Assembly (NCBI GenBank): GCA_945860865.1
Contig: CAMARW010000009.1
Span: 1-64,000, forward strand
Direction of reading: 5' to 3'
Length of the DNA: 64,000 nt
Source: Chitinophaga pinensis
Lineage (GTDB): Bacteria; Bacteroidota; Bacteroidia; UKL13-3
The notes beneath the pieces are model-generated. The model had not been told where the DNA came from. It saw nothing but the letters and a program-made list of their open reading frames with translations, and ran no database searches. Position 1 is the stretch's first letter. Each line of letters starts with the position of its first letter. Made by a program: the position numbers and the translations under genes. Shown piece after piece: positions 28,043-33,944 of the stretch.

Positions 28043-29803
28043 ATGTACAGAACAAATACATGTGGCGAATTAAGGCTTGCAGATGCAGGTAAACGGGTAA
28101 CTTTGTGTGGTTGGTTGCAAAAGGGCAGAGATTTGGGCGGCATGACTTTCATTGATTTGCGTGATAGATACGGCCTTATACAGCTGGCTTTTAACATGGA
28201 AACCAATGCCGAAATATGCGAAAAGGCACGTAAATTGGGTAGAGAATTTGTTTTGCAAGTGAGTGGTTTGGTGAAAGAGCGCGAAAGCAAAAACCTGCAA
28301 ATGCCTACTGGCGAAATTGAAATTATTGTAGATGAGTTATTGGTTTTAAATGAGGCTAAAACACCTCCTTTTACGATAGAAGATAATACAGATGGTGGCG
28401 ACGACCTGCGCATGAAATACAGGTATTTAGATTTACGTCGTGCACCCGTTAGAAATAACATGTTGTTAAGGCATAAAATGGCCCAACAAACCCGAGCCTA
28501 TTTAGATGCCCAAGATTTTACCGAGGTGGAAACTCCCGTTCTAATTAAATCTACTCCAGAAGGTGCCAGAGATTTTGTGGTTCCTAGTAGAATGAATCCA
28601 GGACAGTTTTATGCTTTGCCTCAATCTCCACAAACCTTTAAGCAATTGCTTATGGTGGCGGGTTTAGATAGGTACTACCAAATTGTAAAGTGTTTTAGAG
28701 ACGAGGATTTACGTGCAGATAGACAACCCGAGTTTACGCAAATAGATTGCGAAATGAGCTTTGTAGAGCAAGAAGATGTGCTAAATATGTTTGAGGGATT
28801 GGTGAAACATTTGTTTCAATCGGTGAAAGACATATCGATTCCAGAAGTGCCGCGAATGACCTACGCTGATGCTATGGAGTTTTATGGTTCAGACAAACCA
28901 GATACGCGCTTCGATATGCGTTTTGTTACACTTAATAATACAGCTAATAATTTAGTTGCGGGCAAAGATTTTAAAGTTTTTGAGGAGGCAGAGTTAGTGG
29001 TTGCTATTTGTGCAAAAGGCTGTGCCAGTTACACCAGAAAGCAATTAGATGAGTTAACAGATTTTGTAAAAAAGCCCCAAATTGGTGCTACTGGTTTAGT
29101 TTATGCACGTGTTAATGAAGATGGTACTATTAAATCATCGGTAGATAAATTCTATGATGAAACAGCTTTGCAGGCTTGGGGTAAAGCAACTGGGGCTGAA
29201 CCCAATGATTTGATTTTAATTTTGGCTGGTTCAGACCAAAAAACCAGAAAAGCCATGAACGAGTTGCGCCTAGAAATGGGAACTCGCTTGGGCTTGCGTA
29301 ACAAAGATGTTTTTGCTTGCTTGTGGGTATTAGATTTTCCATTGTTAGAATACAGCGAAGAAGAAAATAGATATTTTGCCATGCACCATCCATTTACATC
29401 GCCTAAGCCGGAAGATGTGGCTTTATTAAGTGCGGGTAAATTGGGTTTGGTTAGAGCCAATGCCTATGATTTAGTTATTAATGGTGTTGAAGTAGGAGGT
29501 GGTTCTGTGCGTATTTTTAACAAAGAACTGCAAGCCCAAATGTTTGAAGTTTTAGGTTTTACCAAAGAGGAGGCTCAAAATCAATTTGGATTTTTAATGA
29601 ATGCTTTTGAATATGGCGCACCTCCACATGCCGGATTAGCCTTTGGTTTTGATAGGTTATGCTCTTTATTTGGTGGTGCAGAAAGTATCAGAGATTTTAT
29701 TGCTTTCCCTAAAAATAATTCGGGCAGAGATGTTATGATTGATGGTCCGAGTGCCATAGATGAAAAACAATTGAACGAGTTGCATATAGCCTTAAAAAAG
29801 TAA
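28043..29803 (+). CDS. aspS: Aspartate--tRNA ligase
   Basis: [63 protein letters not shown]. Confidence 0.98.
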
Positions 29804-30001: not shown

Positions 30002-30391
30002 ATGGCTTTAGACATTACAGGCAAAATTATTCAAATATTGCCAAGCACTACTGGAACCAGCAAAGCTGGAAAAGATTGGGTAAAACAAGAATTTATTGTG
30101 GAAACACAAGAAGCTTATCCAAAGAAAATTTGCATAGGTTTAATGGGTGAAAAGGTCCAAGAACTAAAGAAATATACCACTGGCAATGAGGTAAAAGTTT
30201 CATTAAACATAGAATCTCGCGAGTACCAAGGAAAATGGTATACCAATATTAATGCTTGGCGTATAGAACCAGGTAGCGCAAGTGGCGCTCCTACTGGCCA
30301 AAGCGCTAATAATGAAGAAAATTTTGGTTCGCAAGAAACGTCAGAACCCAGCTATTCGCAAGAAAGTAGCACAGATGATTTACCCTTCTAG
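30002..30391 (+). CDS. DUF3127 family protein, OB-fold-like with SSB-like C-terminal tip
   Basis: ITGKIIQILPSTTGTSKAGKDWVKQEFIVETQ...GNEVKVSLNIESREYQGKWYTNINAWRIE, Ser/Asn/Gln-rich linker, terminal STDDLPF. Confidence 0.8.
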   Translation: MALDITGKIIQILPSTTGTSKAGKDWVKQEFIVETQEAYPKKICIGLMGEKVQELKKYTTGNEVKVSLNIESREYQGKWYTNINAWRIEPGSASGAPTGQSANNEENFGSQETSEPSYSQESSTDDLPF

Positions 30392-30400
30392 GATACTAAT

Positions 30401-31312
30401 TTGATACATTACTTAAGCCATGCAGAAATAGACCAAGCCAAGTGGGATCTCTGTTTAGAGCAATCCCCTAATGGTTTAGTTTATGGGTTTAGTTGGTATT
30501 TAAATATTGCTTCGCCCCAATGGGAAGCTTTAATTTTAGACGATTACCTTGCGGTGATGCCTTTAACAGCTCACCGCAAGTTTTTTATTTGGTATTTAAG
30601 TCAGCCCTTCTTTACGCAGCAATTAGGCATATTTACTAAGCAAGCTGTATCACAAGAAATTTTACAAAGCTTTTTACAGGCTATTCCAGCTAAATTTAGG
30701 TTTATAGACATTCAGCTAAATGAACAAAATCAGCTGTTAAACCCAAAGATTAAAATGCGTAAAAGGCGAAACTATGTGCTAGACCTAGCCAAGCCTTATG
30801 ATAAAATTACTAAAGAGTATAATACGCAAAGTAAGCGCAATTTAAAGAAGGCTAAAAAGTATGAATTGCTTATTCAGAGTATTAGTACTTCTGAAACCGT
30901 TTCTTTTTATAAATTACATAAAGCACTGAGCACAAAAGGTGTAAAAGAAGCTGATTACCAGCGTTTGCAGCAATTGATGGATAAAGCATCCGAACAACAA
31001 AAAATTATTTGCAAGGGAGTGTTCGATAAATCTGGGGAACTTTTGGCTGCAGGTGCATTTTTAGCGCACAAAAATAGAATTATATTCTTATTGGGAAATG
31101 GTTCTGAGCTTGGGAAAGAAAAGGGCGCCATGACTTACCTCATGGATAACATCATTTTTCTTTTTTCTGACCATCGCATGATATTAGATTTTGAAGGCTC
31201 CGAAATTGAGGGTATTGCAAGATTCTTTAGGAGTTTTGGTGCCGAAAAAAGAAATTACTACCGATACAAACTCAATCGCTTACCATGGATTTTGCGATTA
31301 TTTAAAAATTAA
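30401..31312 (+). CDS. FemAB/GNAT-like acyltransferase-fold protein
   Basis: RNLKKAKKYELLIQ...GELLAAGAFLAHKNRIIFLLGNGSELGKEKGAMTYLMDNII...LDFEGSEIEGIARFFRSFGAEKRNY. Confidence 0.65.
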   Translation: MIHYLSHAEIDQAKWDLCLEQSPNGLVYGFSWYLNIASPQWEALILDDYLAVMPLTAHRKFFIWYLSQPFFTQQLGIFTKQAVSQEILQSFLQAIPAKFRFIDIQLNEQNQLLNPKIKMRKRRNYVLDLAKPYDKITKEYNTQSKRNLKKAKKYELLIQSISTSETVSFYKLHKALSTKGVKEADYQRLQQLMDKASEQQKIICKGVFDKSGELLAAGAFLAHKNRIIFLLGNGSELGKEKGAMTYLMDNIIFLFSDHRMILDFEGSEIEGIARFFRSFGAEKRNYYRYKLNRLPWILRLFKN

Positions 31313-31315
31313 GTT

Positions 31316-32200
31316 ATGAAACTCGCTGCCATAGATATCGGATCAAACGCTGTTCGCCTTCAAATTGTTAGGGTTAACGAAATAGGTTCAGCCGATCGTT
31401 TTAAAAAATTAGAATTTGTTCGTATACCCATTCGATTAGGTGATGACGCTTTTAAAGAGCAATGGATTAGCAAAGAAAAGCGCAAAATATTTAGGCTTGC
31501 CATGGAATCTTTTAGTGCTTTACTGGGTGCTTTTGAGGTAGATCATTACATGGCCTGTGCCACTAGTGCAATGCGCGAAGCAGAAAATGGCGAAAAAATT
31601 GTAAAAAGAGTAGAGGAGGAAACAGGGTTAAAAATCCATATTATCAATGGTAAAAAAGAAAGTGAGTTAATTCTCGCTTCTATCCTACATATTTTTGAAC
31701 CCAACAAAAATTACCTAAGCATTGATGTGGGCGGAGGTTCAACTGAAATGACGATTATCTCCAATCAAAAAATCATCAACTCTGCTTCTTTTGATATTGG
31801 AACAGTTAGATTAATGGATGGAGCTGTTTCAGAAAAAACTTGGCAAACCTTAGAACATTGGGTTCAGCATAAAACAGCCGGTTTAACTGATATTAATGGC
31901 GTGGTAACCAGTGGAACTATCAATAAAATACTGGGTTTATTGCACCCTAATCAATTGGTAAAAACAATAACGCGCAATGAATTAAAAGATTTCCATAGAA
32001 AGGTAAGTAAAATGTCGCTGCAAGAGCGCATAGAAAAATACAAACTCAATATGGATAGGGCAGATATCATTGATGTTTCGGCCGATATTTACCTTAGAAT
32101 TTTAAATTGGGCTAATATAAAAACCATTTTAAGTCCAGATAATAGTGGCTTAAAAGATGGTATGTTGCATGTGCTTTATAACAAATTTTACCAGGCATAA
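31316..32200 (+). CDS. Ppx/GppA-family exopolyphosphatase-like protein
   Basis: AAIDIGSNAVRLQI, ACATSAMREAENG, LSIDVGGGSTEMTI. Confidence 0.9.
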   Translation: MKLAAIDIGSNAVRLQIVRVNEIGSADRFKKLEFVRIPIRLGDDAFKEQWISKEKRKIFRLAMESFSALLGAFEVDHYMACATSAMREAENGEKIVKRVEEETGLKIHIINGKKESELILASILHIFEPNKNYLSIDVGGGSTEMTIISNQKIINSASFDIGTVRLMDGAVSEKTWQTLEHWVQHKTAGLTDINGVVTSGTINKILGLLHPNQLVKTITRNELKDFHRKVSKMSLQERIEKYKLNMDRADIIDVSADIYLRILNWANIKTILSPDNSGLKDGMLHVLYNKFYQA

Positions 32201-32268: not shown

Positions 32269-33111
32269 TTATTTTACATTCACTAATTCTACATCAAAAA
32301 TGAGGGTTGCATTTGGCGGAATAACACCACCAGCACCGTTTGGACCATAGCCTAATTCACTAGGAATGATCAAGCGTATTTTGTCGCCTACTTGCATTAA
32401 AGCAATGCCTTCTTCCCAGCCTTTAATAACCATTCCTTGTCCTAATGGGAAACTAATAGGTTCACCTCTTTCAACAGAAGAGTCAAAAGTTCTGCCATCC
32501 ATTAAGTAGCCTGTGTAATGCACATCAACGGTTTTTCCGTTTTCAGCTTTTGCACCTTCACCTTTTTTCACCACAATGTATTTTAATCCACTGGCTGTAG
32601 TTAAAGTGTCTTTGCCTTTAACATCGTAGGCCGCAGCTTTTACGGGTGTAGTAGCATTTAAAACCTCGATATCAAACACTAGGGTACTATTAGATGGGAT
32701 GGTTCCCATATCTCTTTCGCCATAACCAATGCTTGGCGGAATAGTTAAAGTGGCTTTATCTCCAATGTGCAATAAAGCTAAACCTTCATCCCATCCTCTG
32801 ATAACTTGTCCACCACCTACTTTAAAATCAAAAGGTTGGTTGCGGTCTTTAGAGCTATCAAATTTGGTACCGTTGGTTAATTTACCTGTATAATGTACAC
32901 TTACTTTATCGCCAATTTCTACTTTTCGGCCTGAACCGATCTCAGTTACCTTGTATTTGAGTCCGGAAGCGGTGGTGATTTCTTCGTTCAACTTAATATT
33001 TCTTTTAGTGGTTTTATTTTCTTTTTTTGTTGTGCCTTTAGCAGGCTTAGTTTGTGCCATGCTTGGCGCAGTAAATGCTAACGCAGCAGCAAATAATAAA
33101 TACTTTATCAT
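32269..33111 (-). CDS. FKBP-type peptidyl-prolyl isomerase, two FKBP domains
   Basis: Two FKBP units ([18 protein letters not shown]..., [18 protein letters not shown]...) each ending in I/VPP.(S/A)TL(V/I)FD(I/V)E-type motif. Confidence 0.94.
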
Positions 33112-33113
33112 AA

Positions 33114-33944
33114 TTAATTAACTTTAATTAGTTCAACGTCGAAAACCAGCGTTGAGTATGGAGGAATAGGTCCGCTACCACGTGGGCCATAAGCCAATGT
33201 CCAAGGAATAATTAACTGTAATTTATCTCCTTCTTTCATTAACAAAAATCCTTCATCCCAACCTGCTATTACCTGTCCGGCACCAACTGTAAAAGTAAAT
33301 TCAGGGCTACCTTCTTTGGTTTCATCAAAAACAGTTCCATCTAATAAGGCGCCACGGTATTTTACAGTAACTTTATCTCCTTTTTTTACTGCTTTACCTT
33401 TACCAGCTTCTTTAACAATGTATTTTAAGCCAGAATTGGTTTGTTTTACATCTGTTAAACTGCTCAAGAAACTGCTTAAGGCTATGGAGTCTTTAACTTC
33501 AAAATCTTTATTTTGTTCATCAATTTTTTGTTGCATTTCTTGAGGGTTGTATACATCAAGTAAAGTGGCATAAAAAGTAATCATATCACCTGATTTTACG
33601 CCAGGGGGTAAACCTTCACCAAAATTACCATACAAGGTATCTGCTAAAATTTTAAAGATTGCGCTATCACCTTTCTTTAAAACGGCAAAAACTTCTTTTA
33701 AACTTGGCTCTCCTGCTGGGATGTAGTAAGGTTTATTATTTTTGTATGAATCAAAAAGAGCAGAGTCATTTTTGTCTAATACACCTTTTAAATGGATGTG
33801 TAAGTTATCTCCTTCGGCAACCATACGGGCATTGTCGTCTGTTTTAACAATTTTGTATTGGGTTCCATTAGGAGTGGTTTCAAAGCGCTGGTTGCAAGCG
33901 CCCATGATAAAAATGGCAACGATTGCCAAAAGGGTGTTTTTCAT
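33114..33944 (-). CDS. FKBP-type peptidyl-prolyl isomerase lipoprotein, two FKBP-like domains
   Basis: Lipobox FIMGACNQ; C-terminal [19 protein letters not shown]...[18 protein letters not shown]-terminal domain divergent. Confidence 0.92.

Follow-up and report, generated by a model that had tools for sequence, protein, structure and literature searches.

DUF3127 of Bacteroidota as a probable accessory single-stranded-DNA-binding protein with an SSB-type C-terminal tip

The DUF3127 protein encoded at positions 30002–30391 of the window (the whole stretch of 64,000 nucleotides analyzed here) is probably a divergent accessory single-stranded-DNA (ssDNA)-binding protein (SSB), with an OB fold of the SSB/PriB type, a linker, and a genuine SSB C-terminal tip (SSB-Ct) that recruits partners. 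This reading draws on a predicted OB fold, a conserved tip, a recombination context in phages, and canonical SSBs that in the genus of the window have lost their tail where DUF3127 has kept its tip. A preliminary description, made from the sequence alone, had already proposed an accessory SSB, and both the conserved tip and the predicted fold support that proposal.

The gene, its parts, and its neighbors are the following.

28043–29803, forward strand: upstream gene, an aspartyl-tRNA synthetase by its sequence, which adjoins DUF3127 only in the window's genus and one sister genus
30002–30391, forward strand: DUF3127 gene, 129 amino acids plus stop, with an OB core, a linker, and an SSB-Ct-like tip
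30002–30271, forward strand: OB-fold core, residues 1–90 (AlphaFold2 pLDDT 94, pTM 0.82), with PriB and bacterial SSBs as best Foldseek matches
30272–30373, forward strand: disordered Ser/Asn/Gln-rich linker, residues 91–124 (pLDDT mostly <60), unconserved in sequence and length
30374–30388, forward strand: SSB-Ct-like tip DDLPF, residues 125–129, with a PF end in 124/128 chromosomal homologs and DDLPF in 19/19 genus members
30401–31312, forward strand: FemAB-like gene, downstream (sub-threshold Pfam match), functionally uninformative as context
31316–32200, forward strand: Ppx/GppA phosphatase family gene (Pfam PF02541), functionally uninformative as context

The protein matches the DUF3127 model (PF11325) over residues 5–89 with an E-value of 2.2e-33 and 114.8 bits, against a curated cut-off of 27. 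The layout of core, linker, and tip and the exact STDDLPF end first read from the open reading frame hold (129 residues, C-terminus SSTDDLPF), as does the Ppx-like neighbor (PF02541, 9.4e-36). The other neighbor named at the outset keeps a likeness to FemAB, with a PF02388 match of 18.8 bits that lies below the cut-off of 24, and the candidate promoter once assigned to the gene itself finds no support, as sigma-70-like sites in the region number 8 against 10.1 expected in shuffles. No PADLOC model of anti-phage defense matches the protein. At 32269–33944, on the reverse strand, lies an adjacent gene pair that resembles double-domain FKBP-type prolyl isomerases, judging by sequence only.

DUF3127 is found in 115/198 genomes of a sample of the phylum, where the listed non-matches include none from the class to which the window belongs, and in 38/41 genomes of a sample of relatives. 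The order AspRS, DUF3127, FemAB-like, Ppx is limited to the window's genus and its sister genus; other clades have other neighbors, and we found no chromosomal operon around DUF3127 that is conserved across the class. One clade has RecQ (DEAD, RQC, HRDC) upstream of DUF3127 and an RNase_T exonuclease downstream, all on one strand, which suggests a repair unit in that clade (family f17: RecQ and DUF3127 share a strand at loci L037, L038, L040, L043, and L028, with the exonuclease next in all except L037).

The core is predicted by AlphaFold2 as an OB fold (strands 2–12, 25–35, and 42–48, helix 51–57, strands 63–75 and 78–90) with a pLDDT of 94 for the core alone, and the C-terminal tail is predicted to be disordered. 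When the core is compared with the PDB using Foldseek, bacterial SSBs and PriB nearly fill the top 50 matches, with probability 1.00 and TM to the query of about 0.55–0.73. The best matches are PriB (1woc, 4apv, 2pnh), with single-domain SSBs among the same matches at equally good scores. The predicted model has an OB fold of SSB type and of PriB type alike. Against viral models, phage DUF3127 proteins come first and SSBs next. The OB-like core suspected earlier is thus borne out by a predicted SSB/PriB-type fold.

In sequence comparison, the canonical SSB model PF00436 gives no row for it at E-values up to 10, and a phage relative reaches 17.2 bits, below the cut-off of 26; by this curated test, the window protein is a member of DUF3127/PHROG_4932 and lies outside PF00436. 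Aligning the DUF3127 core to a PF00436-type SSB core with hhalign gives a probability of 33% and an E-value of 4.6e-4, a score equaled by 1/150 column shuffles, and for that reason we dropped this comparison as proof of kinship with SSB. Nor is it independent evidence that a Bacteroidota SSB profile matches some DUF3127 proteins, as that profile includes the tip. Because there is no PF00436 match and the profile score is within reach of the shuffled null, descent from SSB is not established by sequence. What DUF3127 has in common with bacterial SSBs (E. coli SSB, B. subtilis SsbA), which are among its nearest solved folds, is an OB core, a disordered linker, and an acidic DD[IL]PF tip. On the other hand, its core is shorter and divergent, it has no PF00436 match, and it coexists with canonical SSB.

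The tip can be evaluated by itself. A first chromosomal set had a PF end in 94/98 DUF3127 copies, with consensus DDLPF. In a non-redundant chromosomal set that also takes in the relatives, the PF end is present in 124/128 homologs, again with consensus DDLPF, when shuffling the last 30 residues of the homologs leads one to expect 1.25 (maximum 6). Thus DUF3127 carries an acidic-hydrophobic C-terminal tip such as canonical SSBs have. The entropy in the alignment is about 3.1–3.7 bits in the linker and 0.2–1.5 bits in the last five positions. The check proposed in the preliminary description, an alignment of homologs at their last residues, gives a D-D-[LIV]-P-F end conserved across Bacteroidota and their phages. 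The exceptions among the 98 copies belong to one family, f12, in which the DUF3127 tip has been dropped in 4/4 genomes. There DUF3127 ends in DDD, DDE, or DEA (L088, L089, L092, L093). The canonical SSBs of this family keep DDLPF (3 copies read), the reverse of what we describe below for the window's genus.

Phages provide the functional context. PHROG_4932, whose function of "single strand DNA binding protein" is an annotation rather than an assay, matches the window protein at 2e-28, over residues 3–129 and profile positions 1–117 of 117, and because of that annotation the SSB label pre-exists for the phage members. RefSeq phage records also label DUF3127 proteins as SSB, and a phage genome report describes an SSB with a DUF3127 domain (PMC8004638). 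In the literature that we searched, this report is the only one to name DUF3127; PF11325 is not named, and we found no functional study. The SSB label is therefore not new for phages; what appears to be new is a tip parted from the canonical SSB across a whole genus. The phage and window proteins are the same family over their full length, OB core plus tip, but in the window the gene is chromosomal, part of the core gene set of its class, and outside any recombination module.

In annotated phages, DUF3127 sits beside RecT, NinG, RusA, and primase/helicase genes. Across 95 phage loci, the commonest neighbor is an ERF annealing protein, at most 4 genes away in 48/95 and mostly 1–3 genes upstream, and YqaJ and PDDEXK exonucleases are the neighbors at other loci. 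The PF end is present in 64/81 unique complete phage copies. A PF00436 SSB above cut-off was found in 0/10 phage records with DUF3127, five of the ten being environmental contigs and maybe fragments. Near the DUF3127 gene of Flavobacterium phage morran9-1, the primase/helicase (L121:7501-9327) has itself an SSB-Ct-like end, DDNSDVPF. A parallel is the SSB of phage HK620, also found beside a single-strand annealing protein, Sak4, whose annealing is driven by the six-residue tip of that SSB, an example of an annealing protein recruited through such a tip (PMC5928155). The HK620 protein belongs to another SSB family, and the phage partner of DUF3127 is ERF or RecT.

Could DUF3127 be a restart factor like PriB (primosomal replication protein N), in which the OB domain binds ssDNA and PriA and an added SSB tail docks on PriA, instead of a protein that coats ssDNA in general? 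We consider this unlikely. PriB is the closest predicted core fold, and PriA is present in the window's genus, although its SSB-Ct pocket residues are unanchored, as the solved-structure alignment ends before Arg697. Yet a PriB is an OB domain without a C-terminal tail, and the window protein has a linker and DDLPF; natural PriB has no tail, and a PriB-SSBc fusion is known only as a laboratory construct (PMC8509808). Moreover, single-domain SSBs equal the PriB scores in the Foldseek list, and in phages DUF3127 has genes for annealing proteins and exonucleases around it instead of restart genes.

OB folds bind proteins and RNA as well. The core might then bind another protein or RNA instead of ssDNA, and the tip would titrate or redirect the partners of SSB. 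This adaptor or decoy, raised as an alternative in the preliminary description, finds no support and seems to us quite unlikely for a protein that is near-universal in the window's class, that is used by phages with no other recognizable SSB, and whose nearest folds are ssDNA binders.

The accessory-SSB reading finds its sharpest case in the genus of the window. The genome of the window has two canonical SSBs, both without linker or tip. One adjoins recA and ends in LLMGTKEKKVI; the other lies between mutY and gldE-gldD and ends in QLLGSHKN. The mutY-ssb-gldE site is that of a tipped SSB in other Bacteroidota, with 51 tipped copies there among the loci read. We examined the window genome and 18 more species of the genus. 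The mutY/gldE SSB is readable in 18 genomes and tail-less in 18/18, and all remaining SSB copies read in the genus are likewise tail-less. Throughout the genus, a second, short tail-less SSB paralog adjoins recA (L002; orthologs for example at L184, L186, and L188). In a tree of SSB cores, the 18 genus SSBs form one clade, whose sister, an SSB from another genus of the family, ends in VDDLPF (SH-aLRT 99), hence a single tail loss there; the whole tree needs about 6 tip changes. No out-of-frame tail is hidden 3′ of the tail-less genes, as neither ssb locus has a [DE]xPF-stop site.

DUF3127, on the other hand, ends in DDLPF in 19/19 genomes of the genus. Scanning the window genome for [DE]-hydrophobic-P-F-stop gives DUF3127 as the sole match in an open frame of more than 30 codons. 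A scan for DDxPF-stop picks out DUF3127 in all 18 other genomes; two of these genomes each yield a further, unrelated ORF. Two unrelated ORFs (L356 and L357, in G203 and G212), of 475 and 171 amino acids, have similar KEDDLPF ends and are possible SSB-Ct mimics. DUF3127 is thus the only tip-bearing SSB-like protein found in the genus. Other lineages with a tail-less SSB at the mutY/gld site (f42, f54, f41), where examined, keep a tipped DUF3127, and the f41 genome additionally carries a second SSB, which is tipped. DnaB-type replicative helicases with SSB-Ct-like ends, DDDDDFPF and DEDDDFPF, occur in family f4 (L334:1-1515, with DnaB_C at 2e-107, and L358; genomes G012 and G095), and G012 has canonical SSB only in tail-less form.

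The tip in the window's genus is under selection, because it is invariant in 19/19 members while the adjoining linker diverges. That it is instead ancestral baggage, with a tail-less SSB that manages without SSB-Ct and a minor, specialized role for DUF3127, we regard as very improbable: the tip is indeed older than the tail loss and kept also where SSB is still tailed, but mere inheritance sits poorly with that invariance and with the central place of the SSB-Ct in recruiting proteins in E. coli (PMC10164576).

For an accessory SSB with a genuine tip, we infer binding of ssDNA, binding of partners, and a division of labor in trans. The OB core would coat ssDNA, and the exposed DDLPF would dock in the SSB-Ct pockets of RecO, RecG, PriA, RecQ, and similar proteins, bringing them to ssDNA. 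Most Bacteroidota would then have in DUF3127 a second tip-bearing SSB beside a tailed canonical one, and for their phages it would be the phage's own SSB. As the canonical SSBs of the window's genus are tail-less, recruitment through an SSB-Ct probably depends there mainly or solely on DUF3127, acting in trans to the tail-less SSB or mixed with it on DNA. Since the DUF3127 tip is conserved also where the canonical SSB is tipped, we propose the role of sole hub for the window's genus only. It is possible, and we say so tentatively, that two proteins share out the two jobs of SSB in this genus, and perhaps also in several other Bacteroidota lineages whose canonical SSB lost its tail, the tail-less SSB protecting ssDNA and DUF3127 carrying the SSB-Ct that organizes the repair machinery.

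The SSB C-terminal tip is the common docking point of about 20 genome-maintenance proteins in E. coli (PMC10164576). A genus with tipless canonical SSBs and a tipped DUF3127 is a natural experiment on the question, must the tip sit on the main SSB? For DUF3127, a near-universal protein of Bacteroidota filed under unknown function, the result is a testable function. And if the split of jobs between SSB and DUF3127 is true, it would be a natural system in which the SSB-Ct acts in trans.
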